From Thaumasiovibrio subtropicus (GTDB lineage Bacteria; Pseudomonadota; Gammaproteobacteria; Enterobacterales; Vibrionaceae): 64,000 bases of DNA. The stretch covers positions 1,116,001 to 1,180,000 of the forward strand of contig NZ_AP023055.1 in NCBI RefSeq assembly GCF_019703835.1, given 5' to 3'. Numbering within the stretch: position 1 is the stretch's first letter; each line of letters begins with the position of its first letter. Positions 53,295-64,000 of this stretch are shown in pieces. Both the position numbers and the translations under genes were made by a program. Below the pieces are notes generated by a model, which saw nothing but the letters and a program-made list of their open reading frames with translations, did not search any database and was not told the DNA's origin.

Positions 53295-53972
53295 TCATTT
53301 CAAACACAATACCTTCGAAAGCCAACGCCCGATTTCAATAATTTGCGGCATCGTAACTTGATGAGCCATAGGATAGGTGGTCCATTGCACATCATAACCG
53401 CGCTCAACGAGTGCATCTCTTGCTTCCAGCCCCATATTAGGTAACACAACAGGGTCAAAATCACCATGCATGATACGGACTGGGATCTGGCGATTCGCCT
53501 CGGTGAACTGAACATCCTCTCGCGTTGCGAAATAGGTACTCATCGTCAGTAAACCACCCAATGGAAGGTCATAGCCCAACGCGGTATGGTAAGCCACGGC
53601 ACCACCCTGCGAAAAACCCGCAATCACGATGCGGTTTGCTTTTATTCCCTTTTCTATCTGATCTTCAATCAGATTTTCTATCGCACGCGCAGACGCAATA
53701 AGCTGCGACTTGTTCACGGTTCTACTCACACCAGCAGACAAAATATCAAACCATGCTGACATTTTCAGCCCGGCATTGACCGTCACAGGAATGGCTGACG
53801 CATGGGGAAAAATAAACCTTACCGCTGCGTCAGCGGGGAGTCCGAGTTCTGGTACCACGGGCTCGAAATCATGCCCATCAGCACCTAAGCCATGTAGCCA
53901 GATGACACAGGCATCGGGATCATTCGCTGGCTCAACAAGTACATGCGGAATAAGCTCTCGCTTCGATGACAT
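53295..53972 (-). CDS. Carboxylesterase / phospholipase (alpha/beta hydrolase 2 family)
   Basis: A 225-residue esterase with the nucleophile elbow GFSQGG, the early WLHGLGADG motif that forms the oxyanion region, Asp in GDFDPVV and His in YPMAHQV, so the Ser-Asp-His triad is complete. It is close to the EstB/acyl-protein thioesterase branch that hydrolyses short acyl esters. Cytoplasmic (no signal peptide). AAGGA lies before the ATG. It is convergent with the VOC gene. Confidence 0.92.
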   Translation of the reverse strand: MSSKRELIPHVLVEPANDPDACVIWLHGLGADGHDFEPVVPELGLPADAAVRFIFPHASAIPVTVNAGLKMSAWFDILSAGVSRTVNKSQLIASARAIENLIEDQIEKGIKANRIVIAGFSQGGAVAYHTALGYDLPLGGLLTMSTYFATREDVQFTEANRQIPVRIMHGDFDPVVLPNMGLEARDALVERGYDVQWTTYPMAHQVTMPQIIEIGRWLSKVLCLK

Positions 53973-54061: not shown

Positions 54062-54871
54062 TTACTGAAATTCACCATGAGCGAGAAAGTGTGACACTTG
54101 CTCAATCACTCCTTGATTTTGCATCATAAAGGTATGGGTAACGGGCATGACGATATGCGCTTTCATTCCTGTCACTTTCGTATTTTCAACAGAGACCTTG
54201 CCATCATCTGGGCTTGGCAGCAGCAGAGATAACATTGGATTAAAGGTCCTCGACCCTGCAATCACCCCTAACTCAAAATGCACAGGCCCCAACTGATTAG
54301 GGATACTATCGGCTTGGGTACCTAATGCTATACCTGCCGGGCCATTGATCCAACCAAACAAGGCCCAATCCCCCATCGCATCCACAATTTCACTACCGCG
54401 ATTGGGTGGCCCTAACATGACAGCGCGACCAAGCTTAGGCATAGAGTGTTGCGATATATAGTATCTCAATAAGATACCGCCCAATGAATGCGTAACAAAA
54501 TGTATCTGCGCAGCATCGCCACACGCTTCAATCGCTGGCGGAATCGCAATTTCGGTTAAGGTATCAATCGGATGATCCGTAGAGGGGTAATCTTGATTAA
54601 CAACACGGTAGCCCAAGGTGGTTAAATGCGCAGCCATTTTAGACATCGAGTCACTGGAGCGAATTAAACCATGAAGTAGCACCACGCATTGACGGTGATT
54701 TTCATCAACAAGCTCTTTGTTGTTCGCTTTTTGTGGCGTGATCGAGGTACTGGAAGCTGAGCTAGCTGGCGACGAGAACAGAGCCATAAAGATACCAAAA
54801 GCTATGGCCGCTGAGGTCAGCTTAAAAAGAACGAGCCGATGATGGAAATGGCGCTGAGATAAAAAAAGCAT
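54062..54871 (-). CDS. Exported alpha/beta hydrolase (lipase-like)
   Basis: 269 residues from ATG 54871, following AGGG at 7 bases; an upstream Met at 54907 lacks a site. A signal peptide or anchor spans residues 16-37 (ALFSSPASSA). The fold shows VLLHGLIRSSDSM, nucleophile HSLGG and a late MPVTHTFMM segment that may hold the His. It resembles bacterial lipases of the LipA/EstA type, including VNQDYPST. It may be periplasmic. It lies 80 bases after the lipid and photolyase gene block and could belong to it. Confidence 0.82.
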   Translation of the reverse strand: MLFLSQRHFHHRLVLFKLTSAAIAFGIFMALFSSPASSASSTSITPQKANNKELVDENHRQCVVLLHGLIRSSDSMSKMAAHLTTLGYRVVNQDYPSTDHPIDTLTEIAIPPAIEACGDAAQIHFVTHSLGGILLRYYISQHSMPKLGRAVMLGPPNRGSEIVDAMGDWALFGWINGPAGIALGTQADSIPNQLGPVHFELGVIAGSRTFNPMLSLLLPSPDDGKVSVENTKVTGMKAHIVMPVTHTFMMQNQGVIEQVSHFLAHGEFQ

Positions 54872-54950
54872 GCTGATACCCTGTTGGCCTTCGCACGCTT
54901 TCATCAAGCAGAGAGCAGACCATCAGCTCACTTCACGACGTCGACAGCGG

Positions 54951-55466
54951 CTAAGGCTCTGTTCCAATAAGTGCTGTTCGCATTTTGGGATAAGCGGTGT
55001 CAGGAGATAACCATATCGCCATAAAATTGCGACTCAGATCGCTATCTTCAATGACTGCCAGTCGTTCATCTGCAAACCAAAACTCACTTTGGCCACTCTC
55101 CTCCAGTGTAAACGTGAGGCGGTCCCCCTCGTTCACATCAGGCCACAAAGGTGCAAGTGCAGCCAACCACTGCGATTGCAATGCTTTATCGATACCTAGA
55201 TGCTCCCATTGGTCGGCGGTCGCCTCCAGTAAGGTCTCTTTGGAGATACTGCGCTTATATTCTATCGTCAATGCAATGTCGCCTTGCACATCATATTGCC
55301 CATTTGGCGACCGCAGCTCTGATTCATAAACACGCCAAAAACCCCAGGTAAATGTCGCGCTGCCAATGGTCTGCCACTGTTGCCAAGAAGAGGCATAGCT
55401 TGTCATTGGTGAGAGCCAGTAGGTCAACGAGACCAAAACAAGTGCTAGATGTTTAGACCGCTTCAT
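54951..55466 (-). CDS. Chalcone-isomerase-like family protein
   Basis: 171 residues with a signal peptide (1-25, LSPMTSYAS). It resembles the bacterial chalcone-isomerase-like domain, with WGFWRVYESELRSPNG at the front and LTIEYKRSISKETL in the middle. The family is found next to DUF2878 and Cfa-type genes in vibrios and related bacteria. Isomerase activity is not expected from this alone. Its start overlaps the end of the DUF2878 gene by about 14 bases, so the two are coupled. Confidence 0.78.
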   Translation of the reverse strand: MKRSKHLALVLVSLTYWLSPMTSYASSWQQWQTIGSATFTWGFWRVYESELRSPNGQYDVQGDIALTIEYKRSISKETLLEATADQWEHLGIDKALQSQWLAALAPLWPDVNEGDRLTFTLEESGQSEFWFADERLAVIEDSDLSRNFMAIWLSPDTAYPKMRTALIGTEP

Positions 55467-55941
55467 GAGATTTCACCTCCCGCGATGACCACCAGTGCAG
55501 CCCAGCGCACAACATCGCCCACGAAGTGAACACTAAACTCAAGGTCAGCAAATCGCCGAAGGGAAAATCAACCGCTCCTAATTTAAAACCCGCATAATAG
55601 CTTGCTGCGGCGCTGGTTGCCCCACCCAACATCACCACCAATATTGGCATGTTGGCCAGACTGGGTTTTAAGTGCCAGCAGTAAAAACCGAATCCCATCC
55701 ACAAAGACATTAGCCAAAAAGGCATTACACCATGATCAAACGCGAAGAGATCAAAATGAATCATCAATGTATCGAGGGTGATACCTAGCATAGAGACGGA
55801 GAGCGCCATCGGTAAAGAGCGAGGAACAAGGGCTAGGTGTATCGCAAGGACGGGAAAAGTGAGCCAAAGCCACTCATCTCTCCCAACAACACACAAAAAC
55901 CAAAATGCATTGAAGCCCAAAGTCAGTGCCAGCAGTTTCAT
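55453..55941 (-). CDS. DUF2878 integral membrane protein
   Basis: 162 residues from ATG 55941, following GAGGGAGG; upstream Met at 55965 has none. About five hydrophobic helices, with the conserved NAFWFLCVVGRD at the N-terminus, GITLDTLMIHFDLFAF and the WLMSLWMGFGFYCWHL helix. The family is unknown in function and always sits in lipid-modifying clusters of this type. It overlaps the chalcone-isomerase-like gene downstream. Confidence 0.85.
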   Translation of the reverse strand: MKLLALTLGFNAFWFLCVVGRDEWLWLTFPVLAIHLALVPRSLPMALSVSMLGITLDTLMIHFDLFAFDHGVMPFWLMSLWMGFGFYCWHLKPSLANMPILVVMLGGATSAAASYYAGFKLGAVDFPFGDLLTLSLVFTSWAMLCAGLHWWSSREVKSHEAV

Positions 55942-55986
55942 CACGCCTCCCTCTATGTTTCTCAAGCTCTATCAAACCGACATCGT

Positions 55987-57222
55987 TTAACGCCATTGTG
56001 GGCGAGATGCCACAATTTGCACCGTACTGATGGTTCTTTCCAAGAACCCGCCTTCGCAGTAACTCAAGTAGTAACGCCACATACGGACAAACCGCTCGTC
56101 GTAACCGAGTCGAAGCACTTCATCAACATTGCTACTGAAGGCCTGATGCCAATCACTCAGCGTTCTCGCGTAATCAATGCCAATATCTTTGACATCACGG
56201 ATAACAAGGTCGCTGCGTTGGGTGAGTGTTTCACTCAGTTTGGTGATTGAAGGTAAGAAGCCACCAGGGAAAATATATTTTTGAATGAAGTCGACACGGT
56301 TGCTGTAGTGATCATAACGTTGATCCGCAATGGTGATCGCTTGAATGGCCATCAAACCGTTGGGTGTTAACAGTGATTCACACTTTTTGATGTAAGTATC
56401 AAGATACTCTTTTCCCACCGCTTCTATCATCTCTACCGATACCAGCTTGTCGTAGGTGCCAGTCAAATCGCGATAGTCTTCGAGCAGTAAGGTAATGCGA
56501 TCGCCTAAATTCTCTTCTTCAACGCGACGTTTTGCCCAATCGTATTGCTCCTGTGAGAGCGTTGTGGTTGTCACACGGCATCCATAGTGCTTGGCGATAT
56601 AAATAGCAAGCGCTCCCCAGCCCGTGCCGATCTCTAAAACGTGATCATCAGGCTGCAGATGAAGCTGCTGACAGAGTCGTTGCATTTTGTTTATCTGCGC
56701 ATCACTCAGCGTATCCGCATCGTGTTGGTAGATCCCTGACGAGTAGAGCATGTTGTCATCCAAGAACTGGGAGTAGAGTGCATTGCCGAGATCGTAATGG
56801 GCGGCGATATTGTCTCTTGCCTGTTTCTTACTATTGCGATTAAACAGGTGAGAGAGCTTGTACCCGATACGAGTCATCCAACTGGTTTTCTTCTCAAGGT
56901 TATCAAGCATCACCAGATTGCGCGCCATAACCTGAACGACTTTCGTCAGGTCGGGCGAATCCCAATCGCCGTCCATAAAGGCTTCAGCGGCGGCGATTGA
57001 ACCTCCCTTTAACATGCGCGAATAGAGCCTTGGATGCCGAACCACTAGCTGCGCCTGAAGTGTCGCATTTCTGTCGCCAAAATAGTGCGTGTCCGCCCCT
57101 TCTTCTACTAGCGTGATACCCGCTTCGGTAACATGTGATAACAGCTTATGTACGCCGCGACGGGCCAAGCGCTCAGTACTTGTCATCGTAAGACTCGCTG
57201 CTTTAGTTTGGGAATCATGCAT
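55987..57222 (-). CDS. cfa: Cyclopropane fatty acid synthase-type methyltransferase
   Basis: A 411-residue SAM-dependent enzyme of the CFA synthase family. The SAM motif is [16 protein letters not shown], followed by [36 protein letters not shown] and the late [10 protein letters not shown]. The Cys and Glu contacts of the bicarbonate site cannot be settled by eye. It acts on unsaturated acyl chains of membrane phospholipids. In this operon it follows DUF1365 and the FAD oxidoreductase, a trio linked in other bacteria to photo-oxidative stress and modified fatty acids. Start overlaps DUF1365 by 8 bases. Confidence 0.93.
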
Positions 57223-58048
57223 TGTGTTTTCTCTCGCTCTTGTTATTCGTTATCGCTTTGTTGTGCTGCGGATTATCCGCTTTATCGTCGCCAACCTCTT
57301 CGGAGGGATAAGGTTGATAAGGAACGCACTTCAACCAAAGCTTAAGCGCCTGCCAGTAAATACCCATGACCACTTTTACTGTCATCGCTGGCGTGGTGAT
57401 CATTTTTTTCAATAATGAAAAACGGCCCAATGTCTCTCGCTTAAGCGCTAAGGTCGCATCAAACACTTTCTCTTGGCTGCCCGTATCCGTTCTCACATCA
57501 AGATGGACGTTTAAGGTTTTACCGGGTTCGTTGATTCGCCAATCATAAATCTGTTGCAAGGTATTAAAGGGGGAAACATGAAAGCTTTTGTGGTGTCGCC
57601 AACGACTCTCTTCCCAGTGTTGTTTCGCAGGTAACAGGTAATAATGCCGTTGATTCCATGGCGTGTTACTCACTTCCGCCAACAGATATTGCCATTGCCC
57701 CGATTTATCGTAGAGGTAGTAGAGATTTAGTGGGCTAAAGTAGAAACCCAGATAGCGTAACTGCGCTAACATTTTCACCCGCCCTTCTCTATCTGGCGTG
57801 CCACCCAGCGCCATCACTTTATCGAAGACAGCGTGCTTTAACTCCCCTTCGGAGTTGCGAAGATAGTCTTGGCGCTGAAAACGGGCAGGCAGCCAAGAAC
57901 GGGTGCCAAATCCACGCAACCATTTGGCAAGATGCGGTAACTCATCCAAATCAATAAAGGGCATAAAAAACGGGTATTTAAAACCGTGCTTTTTCGGCGT
58001 ATAGCGTTGATGAGTGACCCAGCCACTGTATAGAGCGCTCTCCATCAC
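57215..58048 (-). CDS. DUF1365 family protein
   Basis: A 277-residue cytoplasmic protein with the family pattern [52 protein letters not shown] and the KSFHVSPF motif. Function is unknown, but it is regularly coupled to the FAD oxidoreductase and Cfa-type gene, and homologues take part in singlet-oxygen responses in alphaproteobacteria. Its start overlaps the FAD gene stop by four bases and its end overlaps cfa by 8. Confidence 0.9.
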
Positions 58049-59355
58049 GCTACTCCAGACACTAGTTTCAAAGGGGAGTCTATCGCGACACTTTGCGTTT
58101 CATTGCGAATCTGTTTGACCACATCCAACGCGCTGCGTACGCCATCTTCATGGAAACCGTTATACCAATAAGCGCCGCAAAAATAGGTCTGTTGAATACC
58201 ATTGATTTCCCCCCGTCGTTGCTGTGCCGCGACGCTCTCTGTATTAAAGACAGGATGAGAATAGTGAAAGATATTCAATATTTTATCTGCGGCGATGCGA
58301 TCACTGGAGTTCAGAGAAACACAAAATGTTTCAGGTGCATCAATACCTTGAAGGATATTCATGTTGTAGGTCAACGTCGTGGGGTTGTCGCCTTCATCAC
58401 CACCAGACATATGGTAATTCCACGATGCCCACGCCTCTCTTCGTGTCGGCAGAATCGTGTCATCGGTGTGCAGCACGACCTCATTCTCCTGATAAGGCAT
58501 AGCACTTAGAATATCCAACTCCAACGCAGTGGGGTCCGACAACATCGCAAGTGCTTGATCGCTGTGGCAAGCAAAAATCACCGTATCGAAGAAATGCTCA
58601 ACACCACCTGCAACCACCTTCACCTCTTTACCTTCACCGAGGCCTAGACGGGTGACACCCTGTACAGGGGTGTTTAGGTGGATATCGGCCTTCAACTGTG
58701 GCTCCATGCGGCGTATATACTCTCGAGAACCACCAGGAACCACATACCATTGAGGGCGATCCTTGATATCGAGCAAGCCGTGATTGAGGAAAAACCGCAG
58801 AAAGAAGGCCAAAGGAAAAGCGCGCATGTCGTTTAAGGTGGACGACCAGATCGCCGCACCCATAGGCAGAATGTAATCTTCTTCTAAGGCTTGACTAAAC
58901 CCATAACGAGATAAGAAATCACCCAGTGTGCCTTCCAGTGCAACGTCGTCATAAACGGCTTGTTTTGCCAGTTTATTGAAACGCATGATCTCAAACAGAA
59001 AGCGATAAAAAGACAGACTGAACCAATTACGTTTCTGTGCGAACAAGGTTGAGATCGTATGGCCGTTGTATTCCAAATCCTTACTATCGTTTCTTACACT
59101 GAAACTCATCTGCGTTTTCTGACGCCCGATACCTATCTCTTCCAAGAGACGCTCGAAATTAGGATAGGTACGATCGTTAAAGACAATAAAACCGGTATCA
59201 ATCGCATAACGCCCACTATCAACCTCAACATCCACCGTTGCCGTGTGACCTCCTAATGTTTCACCCGCTTCAAACAGGGTGACGTCGTGTTCATTGTGGA
59301 GATACCAAGCGGAGGTAAGGCCAGAGATACCACTACCTATAATGGCAATTTTCAT
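58045..59355 (-). CDS. FAD-dependent oxidoreductase (amine-oxidase fold)
   Basis: 436 residues from ATG 59355, which overlaps the SDR stop (TAATG) and follows CGGGAGA. An earlier Met at 59397 is inside the SDR gene. The N-terminal [19 protein letters not shown] is the dinucleotide-binding motif, then [10 protein letters not shown] and [19 protein letters not shown]. The C-terminal [20 protein letters not shown] completes the FAD site. In related operons this enzyme acts on methylated or unsaturated fatty acyl chains with the Cfa-type protein; the exact reaction is not known here. Confidence 0.9.
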
Positions 59356-60083
59356 TATTGTCTCCCGATCATTTTCTGTATAAGTGAAAGGCGCCAAGAA
59401 AGAGGAAGTAGAGTCAGCGCACGCATAAATCCGGTAAATCGTGATGGAAAGTGAATATCGAGTTTTTTCTTTTCTACCCCTTTTTGCACTTCGCGCGATG
59501 CATGCTCCACAGACACTCGCATCGGCATAGGGAAGTCATTTTTATCGGTCAAGGGGGTCTTAATGAAACCCGGACTAACGAGTGACACGGTCACGCCAAG
59601 CGACGATAAGCCCATACGTAATGAGTGAGCAAAATAGGCAAGGGCCGCCTTGGAGGCGCCATAAGCTTCCGCGCGAGGTAACGGCAAATAAGCGGCACTC
59701 GACCCAACCAATACAAGGTGTGTCTTGGACGTAAATTGGCTTTGCAACGCTTCAATGCAATGTAATACCCCAAAGAAGTTGGCAGAAAAAACACGCTCAA
59801 ACAGTGCCGTATCGACTCTTCCCTCATCAAGGTACTCACAGTTTCCTGCGTTCAAGACAATGAGGTCAGGGACTTCAGGTAATCCCATCAGGGCGGCTTC
59901 TGTTGCCTGCTTGTCGGCCACATCAAAAATCACCGCTTCGATGTTCGGTGAATGTTGACAGAGTCGCGATAACCGCGCTTCGCTCCTCCCGGTCGCGTAG
60001 ACTTTTTTGCCTTGCTTCGCATAGTCCAGCGCCAACTGCTGCCCCAGCCCTGAGCTCGCGCCTGTAATCAATACTGAACTCAT
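59355..60083 (-). CDS. Short-chain dehydrogenase/reductase
   Basis: A 242-residue SDR. The cofactor motif is TGASSGLGQQL, followed by NAGNCEYL, and the catalytic Ser-Tyr-Lys set is in VGSSAAY and YGASKAAL. SLVSPGFIKTPLT closes the active site. NAD(P)H-dependent; the substrate is unknown. Its start overlaps the NTF2-like gene by four bases and its stop the FAD gene by one, so it is within a coupled operon. Confidence 0.92.
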   Translation of the reverse strand: MSSVLITGASSGLGQQLALDYAKQGKKVYATGRSEARLSRLCQHSPNIEAVIFDVADKQATEAALMGLPEVPDLIVLNAGNCEYLDEGRVDTALFERVFSANFFGVLHCIEALQSQFTSKTHLVLVGSSAAYLPLPRAEAYGASKAALAYFAHSLRMGLSSLGVTVSLVSPGFIKTPLTDKNDFPMPMRVSVEHASREVQKGVEKKKLDIHFPSRFTGFMRALTLLPLSWRLSLIQKMIGRQ

Positions 60084-60517
60084 TGCCCCAACCTCGCTTT
60101 TATATGCCGAATAATGCTTCCGACTACCGGTACCGCCTCATAGAGCATCGCGCCCAAATCAAAAAAGTCTTGATGCTTGACCACTTTGTCTCCCGCAAAC
60201 GTCAACATGGTGCACCCTTCTAAGCTACGCGCTTCGCCCTTTTCTAGACGCGGGTGGGAGAAGCGCATTGTCCAATGCAAATAGCCCTTGCCCGCCGCTT
60301 CTTGAAAATGGTGAACATCAAACTCGCAATAGTTCAAATTGGCATAGAGCGATTCAAAATAATCTTCCAATGCAGCAAGCCCTTCGATGCGGTGTGCCGG
60401 ATCAACAAACACGACATCTGGGTCATAGACCTCTTTCAGTAAATGAATATTGTCTTTATCTAGTCGCTGATAAAGGTCGACAAAGTGGGCTATGGGCGAT
60501 GCCGCATCTAAAATCAT
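60080..60517 (-). CDS. NTF2-like (SnoaL) domain protein
   Basis: A 145-residue protein with the cone-shaped NTF2-like pattern: FVDLYQRLDKDNIHLLKEVY, VFVDPAHRIEGLAALEDYFE, and KVVKHQDFFDLGAMLYE. Its conserved residues suggest ligand binding or isomerase-type chemistry in this family, but function is unknown. It is fully embedded between phrB and the SDR gene with 4-base overlaps on both sides. Confidence 0.87.
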   Translation of the reverse strand: MILDAASPIAHFVDLYQRLDKDNIHLLKEVYDPDVVFVDPAHRIEGLAALEDYFESLYANLNYCEFDVHHFQEAAGKGYLHWTMRFSHPRLEKGEARSLEGCTMLTFAGDKVVKHQDFFDLGAMLYEAVPVVGSIIRHIKARLGQ

Positions 60518-61971
60518 ATTTCGCTTCCTGATGGCACAGCCTGCTCTTTGGCCAACTGGAATCGACTAATTGCAATAGTCCGTGCTTCACCGTGATCAAC
60601 GATCGGTGCAGGATATGCCGTATTGCCAACGCCAGCCCAAAGATGCGGCTCATGAATTAAGGTTTCGGGACAATTTTCTAACTCTTTCACCCACTTACGA
60701 ATAAAATCGCCATTAGGATCAAAGCGTTTGCCCTGCGTTGTTGGATTAAAAATACGAAAATAGGGTTGCGCATCCGTGCCAGTCGAGGCTGCCCATTGCC
60801 AACCGCCATTGTTGGCAGCAAAGTCTCCATCGACCAGCTTCGACATGAAATACGCTTCACCTTGTCGCCAATCGATGAACAGATCTTTGGTCAAAAAGCT
60901 AGCCACTATCATACGGAGGCGATTATGCATCCAACCCGTTTCGTTCAACTGGCGCATGGCCGCATCGACAATGGGATAGCCCGTTTTTCCTGCTTGCCAA
61001 GCACTGAGCGCAGCGCTGTTCTTTTCCCATCGCACCGCTTCACTCCAGGGCGTAAATGCTTGATGACGGCACAATCGCGGATAGGCATAAAGTAAGTGGT
61101 TGTAGAATTCTCGCCATACCAATTCATTCAGCCATGAAAAGCCGCCTGATTTCGGGTTATCAATACAGTCTGGCGCTGCGGCCATCAGCATGGCGAAACA
61201 CTGACGCGCTGACAGCGCACCAATGGCCAAATAAGGCGATAGCATGCTCGTGCCATCAACAGCGGGATAGTCTCGCTTCTCGTGATATTGATGCACTGAC
61301 TCATCACAAAACTGCTGTAATCGCGACGATATCGCACCGTCATCGACCGGATATGCATCACTCGGTATCTTTTCAGAAGCGAAGGTAATCGGTTCCACTT
61401 GCTGGGTATCACCTTGCAAGGGATAAAACTGTGGAGACGGAGTGGGACGCGGCATGGCCTGTGCGCCATAAGAGTTTAAGACCCGCAACCACGATTTACG
61501 AAACGGCGTAAACACTTTGTAGGGCTCGCCATGACCATTCAATACAGTCCCAGGAGCAAGAATACAGCTGTCATCATAAACCTGCATCTGAACACCCACC
61601 CCTTTCAACGCGTTTGCCACTTGATAGTCGCGTTGCATTTCATTGAGCTGGTATTCTTTATTACACAGGACTGCACTGGCATTAAACTCCGTGCACACTT
61701 TTTCAACGAGCGAAGGTGTAGCCGCAAAGTCGTCACATTGTGTCACAAGCAGAGGAATACCAAGACTGTTCAACTTTTTACGCAACACAACCAGTCGACG
61801 TTCGATAAGGTCAGCCTGAATCGGTGCCATTTGATGCGCGCGCCACTGCCCCGGTGTCTCGACAAACAGTCCAATAATGGGCTGTTGACGTTCCGCTGCT
61901 TTGCTCAACGCGGTGTTGTCCGCAACTCTGAGATCGCGCCTAAACCACACGATGATAGGAGCATTACTCAT
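60514..61971 (-). CDS. phrB: Deoxyribodipyrimidine photolyase
   Basis: A 485-residue photolyase. The N-terminal domain begins WFRRDLRVADNTAL, and the C-terminal FAD-binding domain carries WMHNRLRMIVASFL, DLFIDWRQGE, YFMSKLVDGDFAANNGGWQW and ASTGTDAQPYFRIFNP. These fit class I CPD photolyases, which split pyrimidine dimers using blue light. The gene overlaps the MerR regulator upstream by 8 bases and the NTF2-like gene downstream by four. YbgA-phr adjacency is also seen in Escherichia coli. Confidence 0.95.
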   Translation of the reverse strand: MSNAPIIVWFRRDLRVADNTALSKAAERQQPIIGLFVETPGQWRAHQMAPIQADLIERRLVVLRKKLNSLGIPLLVTQCDDFAATPSLVEKVCTEFNASAVLCNKEYQLNEMQRDYQVANALKGVGVQMQVYDDSCILAPGTVLNGHGEPYKVFTPFRKSWLRVLNSYGAQAMPRPTPSPQFYPLQGDTQQVEPITFASEKIPSDAYPVDDGAISSRLQQFCDESVHQYHEKRDYPAVDGTSMLSPYLAIGALSARQCFAMLMAAAPDCIDNPKSGGFSWLNELVWREFYNHLLYAYPRLCRHQAFTPWSEAVRWEKNSAALSAWQAGKTGYPIVDAAMRQLNETGWMHNRLRMIVASFLTKDLFIDWRQGEAYFMSKLVDGDFAANNGGWQWAASTGTDAQPYFRIFNPTTQGKRFDPNGDFIRKWVKELENCPETLIHEPHLWAGVGNTAYPAPIVDHGEARTIAISRFQLAKEQAVPSGSEI

Positions 61972-62773
61972 TAGTCATCCTTTTTTCTAAAAGTGAGGAG
62001 GCATCTGCACCGCTATTAAACAAGGTCAATTCAGGGTGCAGCTGTGAAATCAAACCCTTGCTATATACAGGCATATCTAGCTTTGCGATTTCCTGTATAG
62101 CTTGGTTCGAGAGCTTTTTACGCCCCATGACAATGATTTGTTCAGCAGATGTCGCTGACAAAGACTTGAAATGATCAATTTGGTCGACAATGACAACGCT
62201 GTAGCCCTGTTGTCTGAGACCTAACGCCGCCAACCAGATGTGATGATCAGCCTCTTGAGCACTAGCGATTGCAACCACACCCTTCTTCCCAGAAAGAGAA
62301 ATAGCTAACGCAGCGCATACTGCGATAACCGCATTGCGCCACACGGCGCGCTCAACGGACACCAGTGCTGAATCGCCGAGAACGGCATCAATATGGGCGG
62401 CAATCTTCCCTTCAAAATAACTGAGTGGGTAGAGTTTCAGCGCTTCTTTCACCAAGGCTTCAACCCTGTGCTGATCGCCCTTACGGATTCGCAGCAACAG
62501 ATCTTCCGCCTCTTGTGGTACATCGAAATTGAGTTCGACCTCTTGCTGCGAGCCCAGTAGCGGCCTCACCTTACCGATTGACACCCCCTTCTCGAGCCAA
62601 TACAGAATATGGCCAATGGATTCGATATCTTCTTCGGTATACAAGCGGTGACCTTTGTCTGTTCGCATCGGTTTTATCAAACCATATCTGCGCTGCCACG
62701 CGCGTAAGGTGACAGTATTCACGCCGGTTTTGTCTGCAACTTCACCGATTGAAAAATAACGCTTAGAGTCCAT
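61964..62773 (-). CDS. MerR-family regulator, LitR/CarH-like, second gene of its own operon
   Basis: A 269-residue regulator. The N-terminal winged helix (YFSIGEVADKTGVNTVTLRA, WQRRYGLIKP) is MerR. The C-terminal part (about residues 80-260) resembles the B12-binding region of CarH/LitR, but the signature DxHxxG is altered: ADHHIWL has a His but lacks the Gly, and the following GG is absent. B12 binding is therefore doubtful, as in short-type LitR or PplR proteins. It likely represses the operon in the dark. The start overlaps the YbgA gene by 11 bases. Confidence 0.87.
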   Translation of the reverse strand: MDSKRYFSIGEVADKTGVNTVTLRAWQRRYGLIKPMRTDKGHRLYTEEDIESIGHILYWLEKGVSIGKVRPLLGSQQEVELNFDVPQEAEDLLLRIRKGDQHRVEALVKEALKLYPLSYFEGKIAAHIDAVLGDSALVSVERAVWRNAVIAVCAALAISLSGKKGVVAIASAQEADHHIWLAALGLRQQGYSVVIVDQIDHFKSLSATSAEQIIVMGRKKLSNQAIQEIAKLDMPVYSKGLISQLHPELTLFNSGADASSLLEKRMTNE

Positions 62774-63704
62774 AACGTAGTCTCAACTCCTTAGGGTAAG
62801 GATTTAAATAAACTTGCGATGCCAAATAGTCATCAGGATAGCTTTGTAAATAGTGATTGATGAGCGTGATCACAGCCAAAATCGGCAGGGCACCATGTCG
62901 ATAATCCATGATGACACCAGCGAGCTCGGCCTTTTGCTCTTTGGTCAGGTACTTTTTGAAGTAACCTTGAATATGTTGCAGGGTACAGGTGTTGTTTTTG
63001 CGATTCGCGCGATCGGTAATGGCGGCCATAAATTCGTTTCGGTAACGCTCAAAAAACGATTGAATGTCGTGATTGGCGATATCGGCGACGAGTCGACCAA
63101 GGTCTCGATACGCTTTCTGATTGTGTGCCATCAAAACCAACTTGTATCGTGAGTGGAACTTAACTATCGCCCCAGCAGTAAGCTCTTTGGTCGAGTCATA
63201 AAGGTCTTTCAGCGCGAAAACGCGAAAGACGAAGTTCTCACGCAGGTACTCATCACAAAGACGGCCATCTTCCTCAACGGGCAGCCATGGATAGCGCTTC
63301 ATTAGCTCACGAGTAAACAGTCCGCTGGTACCGCCCGGCACAGTATTTCCATTCTCGATATAAAGTTTCACTCGTTCCATGCCACAGGTTGGTGATTTAG
63401 CGCAAACAATAAAGCCACATAAATCACTCATGCTCGGCAACACTTTCTCTGTGTAACCCAGCATATCGTCGGTAAAGTCCACACTGCGGTCTTTGTTACT
63501 GACCAAACGGATGCCATTTTCCCGGTCGATAAGGCGTATCGTCGGTCGCGGCGTACCCATCCCGATGGCGTTTTCAGGGCACACAGGGCGAAACGTAAAA
63601 TGCTTCGTCAGTTCATCCACAACAAAGCGGTTCATTTTGTGACCGCCATCGAATCTCACTTTTTCGCCCATAACACAGGCACTTACACCAACATTGATCG
63701 ACAT
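62763..63704 (-). CDS. YbgA-like protein (DUF523 + DUF1722)
   Basis: 313 residues from ATG 63704, following GGAGCGAG at about 5 bases; the longer frame upstream would pass through the operator repeats. The N-terminal DUF523 half holds conserved Cys residues (GVSACVMGEKVRFDGG, CGFIVCAKSPTCGM, CDEYLRE), and the C-terminal DUF1722 half has KYLTKEQKAELAGVIMDYR. The homologue ybgA precedes phr in Escherichia coli. Recent work on the family suggests thiouridine-related chemistry, but I cannot confirm this from sequence. First gene of the light-stress block. Confidence 0.87.
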   Translation of the reverse strand: MSINVGVSACVMGEKVRFDGGHKMNRFVVDELTKHFTFRPVCPENAIGMGTPRPTIRLIDRENGIRLVSNKDRSVDFTDDMLGYTEKVLPSMSDLCGFIVCAKSPTCGMERVKLYIENGNTVPGGTSGLFTRELMKRYPWLPVEEDGRLCDEYLRENFVFRVFALKDLYDSTKELTAGAIVKFHSRYKLVLMAHNQKAYRDLGRLVADIANHDIQSFFERYRNEFMAAITDRANRKNNTCTLQHIQGYFKKYLTKEQKAELAGVIMDYRHGALPILAVITLINHYLQSYPDDYLASQVYLNPYPKELRLRYGL

Positions 63705-63719
63705 AACTCGCTCCAGAGT

Positions 63720-63787
63720 TGTACATTTATAACTCTTTGTACAACTATTAATGATTTTTGGATCATTGTACAAACATTTTTTGTACA
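63720..63787 (-). promoter_or_regulatory. Operator-like array of four TGTACA motifs before the photolyase operon
   Basis: TGTACA occurs at 63720-63725, 63738-63743, 63767-63772 and 63782-63787, usually inside TTGTACAA-type contexts. It covers the likely promoter of the YbgA gene on the minus strand. Spacings between starts are 18, 29 and 15 bases. MerR regulators of the CarH/LitR type bind repeats with a core TnTACA, which fits. A TGATCC word at 63760-63765 (minus strand) is also present; it resembles the -35 of ECF11 (RpoE/ChrR-type) promoters, but no matching -10 was found. Confidence 0.7.
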
Positions 63788-64000
63788 ATGCAACGATAAG
63801 CATAGTATGCATACAGAGTTGTGACGATGAACGGCATCAAAAGAGTGAATGAGATCTATACTCAAGCGACCCGAGTAAGGTTGTTCAAAGGGAAGAGTTA
63901 GGCTTATCCACGCGGTGTTTTTTTAGCAGTTCTCATAGGCATTCACGTGAATAAATAAGAATGGGTTTTGTGGGAAGATGAAATGGACAAAGACTCAACA

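Follow-up and report, generated by a model that had tools for sequence, protein, structure and literature searches.

Upstream of rudS in Thaumasiovibrio subtropicus the hexamer TGTACA recurs four times over a short distance, and the question raised by this locus is which protein reads the repeats, over which promoter, and with what effect. The window analysed here is the whole stretch of DNA of 64,000 nucleotides. The initial annotation had placed four TGTACA motifs within 68 bp, which was confirmed (at 63720, 63738, 63767 and 63782), and had proposed an operator by which a MerR-type regulator controls its own operon. Along the minus strand, box 1 is followed by box 2, TGATCC, box 3, box 4, GGAG and the ATG of rudS at 63704 (Table 1), and the boxes lie 16–83 bp upstream of this start. 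This start, which GGAG precedes by 6 bp, is the most likely one; the open frame extends upstream to an ATG at 63812. The boxes bracket a predicted core promoter, a feature overlooked in the initial annotation. Behind the array ten co-directional genes, mostly overlapping, occupy 54951–63704, in agreement with the ten-gene operon described there. The figure of ten itself is a working count and the limits of the operon are predicted, since terminator-like sites are near the shuffled number (15 versus 11.5) and the two genes next in line (54062–54907 and 53295–53972) may also be members. A like gene order, with an occasional gene missed, was found in T. occultus, Grimontia, Enterovibrio, Salinivibrio, Veronia, most Photobacterium, Aeromonas, Oceanimonas and Shewanella corallii; at Vibrio loci the block detected was rudS-litR-phrB only.

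Table 1. Boxes, promoter elements and genes of the rudS operon (positions in the window)
Feature	Position	Strand	Remark
TGTACA box 1	63782..63787	-	farthest upstream; outer half of upstream dyad; aligned arrays
TGTACA box 2	63767..63772	-	inner half of upstream dyad; TTGTAC at the −35 position under a σ70 reading
TGTACA box 3	63738..63743	-	TGTA at the place of the σE −10 (CGTA): TGATC-N17-TGTA
TGTACA box 4	63720..63725	-	downstream half of promoter-proximal dyad; within predicted leader
Upstream dyad CATTGTACA-N9-TGTACAATG	63764..63790	.	boxes 1–2; box spacing 15 bp
Promoter-proximal dyad GTTGTACA-N12-TGTACAAC	63718..63745	.	boxes 3–4; exact match to class II LitR consensus and MlrA word
TGATCC	63760..63765	-	putative −35 of ChrR-controlled ECF sigma factor; 22 bp before box 3
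GGAG	63711..63714	-	likely rudS ribosome-binding site, from sequence
rudS	62763..63704	-	TudS/2-thiouracil desulfurase + DUF1722, tRNA 4-thiouridine desulfidase type; PF04463 E 1.3e-35, PF08349 E 1.3e-42; function according to PMC11417400
litR/mlrA-like	61964..62773	-	MerR-type regulator (Pfam MerR_1) with degenerate B12-type C-terminal half; proposed repressor
phrB	60514..61971	-	deoxyribodipyrimidine photolyase; PRK10674 E 2.4e-194, above its cut-off
SnoaL-like protein	60080..60517	-	
Short-chain dehydrogenase	59355..60083	-	
FAD-dependent amine-oxidase-like oxidoreductase	58045..59355	-	start probably at an internal ATG
DUF1365 protein	57215..58048	-	
Cyclopropane-fatty-acid-synthase-type methyltransferase	55987..57222	-	position of ufaM in Pseudomonas
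DUF2878 protein	55453..55965	-	
Chalcone-isomerase-like protein	54951..55466	-	

Taken as a whole, the explanation that we favour is probable: auto-repression by a LitR/MlrA-like protein at two dyads laid over a σE-type promoter. We infer that the four boxes form two dyadic binding sites for the LitR/MlrA-like MerR-family product of the second gene, whose dimers on both dyads, perhaps joined as a tetramer, would sit over the core promoter and shut down the operon together with litR itself. Release of the repressor would follow a photo-oxidative signal, most likely passed on by another protein. In this species the core promoter would most likely be read by the ECF factor σE held by ChrR, with TGATCC between the dyads as −35 and with box 3 overlapping the −10. 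Because box 3 would lie over the −10, repressor and σE would be rivals for these bases, and the operon would be fully expressed only with the repressor released and σE free. Among the parts of this scheme, an autoregulated operator of LitR/MlrA type is very probable when taken alone; action by repression is highly likely; a σE-type core promoter in this lineage is somewhat favoured; and light or redox, named as the signal in the initial annotation, is plausible from related systems.

The initial annotation had made its idea depend on the motif being kept upstream of orthologous operons, and it is kept. Arrays were sought with a finder that takes four boxes, one mismatch per box, with box spacings limited to 14–19 and 26–35. 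Of 50 family-genome loci, the window's among them, 45 have a four-box array at the same place, as do 43 of 47 named Vibrionaceae loci. A relaxed run with two mismatches in the outer boxes, applied to 10 array-less loci (L108 not among them), added L018, L028 and L065 and brought the counts to 47/50 and 44/47; the two sets overlap, as they share genomes, and hold 83 distinct arrays. The array was also present at 6 of 7 Aeromonadaceae loci. By the finder, no array was detected at five Vibrionaceae loci with regulator and upstream DNA present (L043, L045, L084, L108 and L129), among which L043 and L129 have one box pair each; L021 lies at a contig end, without upstream DNA. The finder likewise detected no four-box array at 26 other named loci (Enterobacteriaceae, Erwiniaceae, Halomonadaceae, Shewanellaceae, Pseudomonadaceae, Oceanospirillaceae, Ectothiorhodospiraceae and two unplaced), several of which carry single box pairs. 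Over 97 arrays the box spacings are 16–19, 29–33 and 17–19, with one exception, the 15 bp of the upstream dyad in the window (18 bp in the sister species T. occultus). This dyad has N9 here and N10–N13 in the other 96 arrays, and in view of its spacing it may be weak or differently bound in this species. The class II LitR dyad T(G/A)TACA-N12-TGTA(C/T)A, a consensus from PplR1 of P. putida (Sumi et al. 2020) taken via PMC9758184, is matched exactly at 63720–63743; the second N12 dyad of that operator is replaced by the N9 dyad in the window.

What lies between the dyads was examined next to the promoters of ECF11 σE factors controlled by ChrR. In V. cholerae, TGATC-N16-18-CGTA is by prediction the ChrR-controlled σE promoter (PMC5241685). 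In Shewanella the same motif is the RpoE2 promoter, with two starts mapped by primer extension and with the rudS-type operon listed as a predicted target (among PMC6852236, PMC7380195 and PMC4336711). The window shares the TGATC (63761–63765), but at N16–18 it has no CGTA(A/T); it has TGTAC at N17, and the −10 would be TGTA and not CGTA because it is superposed on box 3. The predicted rpoE promoter of the same genome reads TGATC-N17-CGTAT, against TGATC-N17-TGTAC in the array. TGATC was found in 29 of the 83 distinct arrays, the window's included, 24 times at 22 bp and 5 times at 23 bp before box 3, while shuffled spacers gave it in register 0.2 times on average and 3 times at most. It is present in all named arrays of Thaumasiovibrio, Grimontia, Enterovibrio, Salinivibrio and Veronia (14/14), in 4/16 of Photobacterium and in 0/14 of Vibrio. 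With ChrR status taken for 43 of the 50 genomes (six lay outside the ChrR search and L021 was left out), TGATC occurs in 17/31 ChrR-positive versus 0/12 ChrR-negative genomes (p 0.001), and in 22/31 ChrR-positive genomes once second arrays are counted. In this comparison G126 was counted as ChrR-negative because two genomes without match were unlisted, and the array-less L043 and L045 were entered as lacking TGATC.

The same operator and repressor could also act on an ordinary σ70 core, as in P. mendocina; box 2 would then supply TTGTAC as −35, the −10 would be a TAnnnT lying between the boxes, and TGATC would have some other role. Arrays of Vibrio and of several Photobacterium do have TTGTAC-N17/18-TAnnnn, in many cases with TGC in front of the −10, and they lack TGATC; TAnnnT is still kept in many arrays with TGATC; and the promoter P6650 of P. 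mendocina is σ70-like (PMC9758184). For the window this possibility is doubtful. The nearest thing to a correctly spaced −10 is AATAGT, a consensus scan finds no σ70 promoter on the minus strand at the array, and TGATC is fixed at 22–23 bp and seen only in ChrR-positive genomes among the 43 compared. On the other hand, 14 of the 31 ChrR-positive genomes have a litR array without TGATC, Vibrio arrays lack it altogether, and arrays without TGATC score better for a σ70 −10 (home-made score, p 0.002); the use of σE is therefore lineage-specific at best. The operator by itself is a known type of switch, and the new part is its superposition with a σE promoter. A wider form of the σE reading seems to us about evenly balanced: a widespread two-input promoter, in which repressor and singlet-oxygen σE share bases, box 3 serves as −10 and both sensors must agree, with lineages having switched σE and σ70 cores under an unchanged operator, lost the operator together with the repressor, or, in Shewanella, set it in a different register.

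The initial annotation had also suggested looking for the motif upstream of rpoE-chrR, and there it is not shared. Among 30 chrR loci read, the window's own included, the 1.5 kb upstream of chrR are free of TGTACA in 25 and contain a single copy in each of the remaining five. A regulon shared with rpoE-chrR is thus unsupported here, as there is no box at that place and the pair is confined to the rudS operon: in the genome of the window (5.56 Mb) no second exact TGTACA pair with 6–15 bp between the boxes was found, and a relaxed dyad search gave matches at control level only. With no box at its own rpoE-chrR, the operator looks local in this genome. As a separate candidate, the palindrome ATGAT-N6-ATCAT around TGATCC, which we take to be Fnr-like, was considered as a general reason for TGATC and rejected, as by eye it does not recur in other arrays.

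The second gene does encode a MerR-type regulator (Pfam MerR_1, E 4.2e-18), and the degenerate B12 region that the initial annotation ascribed to it was borne out. The closest curated family is MlrA (E 3e-29, residues 7–206, under the family cut-off) and the next is CarH (E 4e-19, residues 5–135). In the HTH, identities are 38/70 to MlrA, 41/70 to BluR and 29/70 to CarH, and the recognition segment VTLRAWQRRYGL is identical to that of E. coli MlrA/BluR. In a 50-row alignment T22-W26, R28, R29 and L32 of the winged HTH are invariant, and V21, Q27 and Y30 are kept in at least 90%; in a 21-row alignment the HTH is highly conserved and the C-terminal half keeps little besides a KxYP motif. The AlphaFold2 model (pLDDT 87.7) has an HTH, a helical bundle and a Rossmann-like domain in the CarH arrangement, and its top Foldseek matches are CarH structures (E 7e-11, whole-chain TM about 0.4). 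The motifs of the class I CarH/LitR B12 photosensors are named ExHxxG and Wx9EH. With these photosensor repressors the protein thus has in common the MerR-type HTH, both further domains and a light-type operon; in a profile alignment to CarH, however, neither the B12-binding His of ExHxxG nor the Wx9EH positions are conserved. The B12-binding_2 score is 13 bits against a cut-off of 23, and two His residues of the window's protein lie 2–3 residues off the ligand position and are not conserved in the family. Photosensing through B12 is unsupported, as the B12-ligand positions are not kept. In a quick tree the regulator stands among other Vibrionaceae; Aeromonas, Shewanella and the enteric MlrA/BluR are close by, while Pseudomonas and Halomonas branch off outside. 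Many of the inner branches are poorly supported, and the Vibrionaceae set is without strong support. The protein likely belongs to class IV LitR (Vibrio). The GxNCRFLQ-type motif is the LOV signature, and no exact codon-pattern match to it was found in the genome. Two short BLUF proteins of about 150–160 aa are encoded in the same genome (L165, C1:3009850; L166, C1:2079604), on the other chromosome and with no TGTACA pair adjoining; they are possible light-dependent partners of the regulator.

The sites themselves point to the same branch of the family. B12-type CarH proteins read tandem TnTACA repeats, whose word and spacing are unlike the operator described here. The CarH-style repeats invoked by the initial annotation thus give way to the dyad TTGTACA-N12-TGTACAA of MlrA and class II LitR. 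In E. coli the MlrA site at csgD is TTGTACA-N12-TG(C/T)ACAA (PMC9662190, PMC3509220), and MlrA and BluR sites are built of GTACA half-sites (PMC3509220), so that both half-sites and recognition segment are common to these proteins and the window's. They differ in that MlrA activates csgD, BluR works with a BLUF-EAL partner, and each has one site, whereas the window has a four-box array over an autoregulated operon. Nearer in layout is the class II LitR PmlR2 of P. mendocina, which footprints on two TGTACA-N12-TGTACA sites before PME6650, one over the −35 and the other between +1 and ATG; it acts as a repressor in vitro, and under blue light a LOV protein releases it (PMC9758184). The genes there are PME6650, pmlR1, phrB, SDR, FAD oxidoreductase and ufaM (PMC9758184). 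PME6650 is probably rudS, judging from PMC11417400 and from a Pseudomonas sp. rudS-litR-phrB locus with the same TTGACT-N16-TATGAT promoter, where boxes stand 31 and 19 bp apart without a full four-box array. The operator of P6650 (P. mendocina / P. putida class II LitR) and that of the window are alike in two-dyad layout and gene content. They differ in dyads (both N12 in P. mendocina, N12 and N9 here), in core (σ70 there, σE-like in this lineage), in the LOV anti-repressor, whose gene the signature search did not find in the window's genome, and in the protein, as the Pseudomonas homolog L134 is 26% identical overall. PMC11976125 also belongs among the precedents. For class IV LitR of Vibrio, which is without B12 domain and whose function is called unknown in PMC9758184, the array offers a concrete putative binding site.

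These comparisons bear on the sign of regulation. The regulator might be an activator, like MlrA at csgD or metal-type MerR proteins: its closest curated family acts in this way, and VCA0056 of V. cholerae is reported as suppressor or enhancer, activating tcpA (PMC5241685, PMC9662190). This appears improbable, because the boxes lie over core promoter and leader, an arrangement also seen at P6650 and ycgZ, both of them repressed promoters (PMC9758184, PMC3509220), because the MlrA site at csgD is well upstream (PMC9662190), and because the operon is kept without boxes in lineages that lack litR.

The distribution of litR provides a natural experiment in promoter rewiring. Of 247 family genomes, 235 have rudS and 154 the regulator. 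Among the 81 litR-less genomes that bear rudS, 20 were examined, and the array is present in none of their rudS operons (0/20), versus 47/49 with litR (Fisher 2e-15 with kinship ignored, a value that overstates independence since the sequences share ancestry). A search of these 20 rudS stretches turned up no litR. In 18 of them phrB follows 947–1084 bases after the rudS start, which leaves no room for litR; in L176 and L184 phrB was undetected in the examined stretch. A weak box pair occurs in 2/20, and TGATC stands 55–69 bases before the rudS start in 11/20. It can be seen that in these genomes absence of litR goes with absence of the array. Together with conservation, with a layout and gene order like those of the P. 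mendocina class II LitR locus, and with a dyad like the E. coli MlrA site, this joint absence supports the operator and the autoregulation put forward in the initial annotation. As a side observation, the rudS-phrB operon of litR-less genomes (L176–L195) often has a promoter TGATC-N17-(C/T/A)GT(A/T) without boxes; a litR-less Photobacterium-group genome has TGATC-N17-TGTAT before rudS. In the litR-less G023, rudS lies about 11–12 kb from a chrR gene.

Further, in five Photobacterium angustum-type genomes (L171–L175) rudS, in two copies, is a unit of its own some 3.9 kb upstream of litR, and the rudS unit and the litR-phrB unit each have their own four-box array. TGATC is in the array of the rudS unit and is absent from that of litR-phrB. 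An unrelated regulator that reads TGTACA, with litR merely hitch-hiking, is then very improbable, given arrays absent from all 20 litR-less operons, arrays before both units where rudS and litR stand apart, and related proteins that bind the TGTACA word (PMC9758184, PMC3509220). In its favour, LitR binding at the boxes is so far a prediction, and an exact dyad exists somewhere in 36/93 litR-less genomes, against 127/154 with litR. The reversed control pattern was found in 22/93 and 26/154, respectively, and the dyad pair alone is therefore unspecific.

Nor is TGTACA a common word here: the window holds 9 copies in all, 5 of them outside the array, where shuffling gives 13.6 on average. Simulation of 300 windows of 64 kb with matched dinucleotide composition put at most 3 copies, and that a single time, into any 68 bp; for 20000 simulated 400-bp stretches with the local composition the highest count was 2. 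The initial annotation was thus right that such a density is unlikely by chance. A chance cluster of a 6-mer in AT-rich DNA is refuted by these simulations, by the conservation, and by a scan of other sequence, 2.5 Mb with both strands included, that gave zero arrays even with 3 mismatches allowed.

LitR/MlrA-like repression at the array can be set beside the blue-light response of V. cholerae. There MerR (VCA0056), likewise predicted to be in one operon with phr (VCA0057), and ChrR jointly account for the response; a mutant in both chrR and merR is light-blind, and blue light still induces the MerR operon when ChrR is missing (PMC5241685). The ChrR-independent induction agrees with Vibrio arrays that lack TGATC. 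The superposition seen in the window would offer a testable link between the MerR/LitR and ChrR/σE arms, whose relation was left open by that 2017 study (PMC5241685). In V. cholerae a different 18-mer was footprinted by VCA0056/MlrA at tcpA, with induction through Fnr (PMC9662190). This 18-mer has no match in the window at up to 3 mismatches. Near the 97 arrays its best match has 4 mismatches, and 19/97 arrays have one at 4–5 mismatches versus 8/97 in one shuffle, a small excess left uninterpreted. In V. metoecus a perfect four-box TGTACA array is found in place of the tcpA-type site. The array findings as a whole suggest that the published V. cholerae site is not the main operator of that protein.

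In Shewanella the two signals are joined in a second way. The published promoter of the S. oneidensis operon (SO_3386) reads TGATCC-TTGTACAA-...-CGTAAT (among PMC6852236, PMC7380195 and PMC4336711), and the available portion of that account holds no comment on TTGTACA. There and in L103, TTGTACA lies in the −35/−10 spacer, a different register from that of the window. Of two Shewanella loci compared, S. fodinae has TGTACA-like boxes and no TGATC, and S. corallii has TGATCC-TTGTACA-CGTA.
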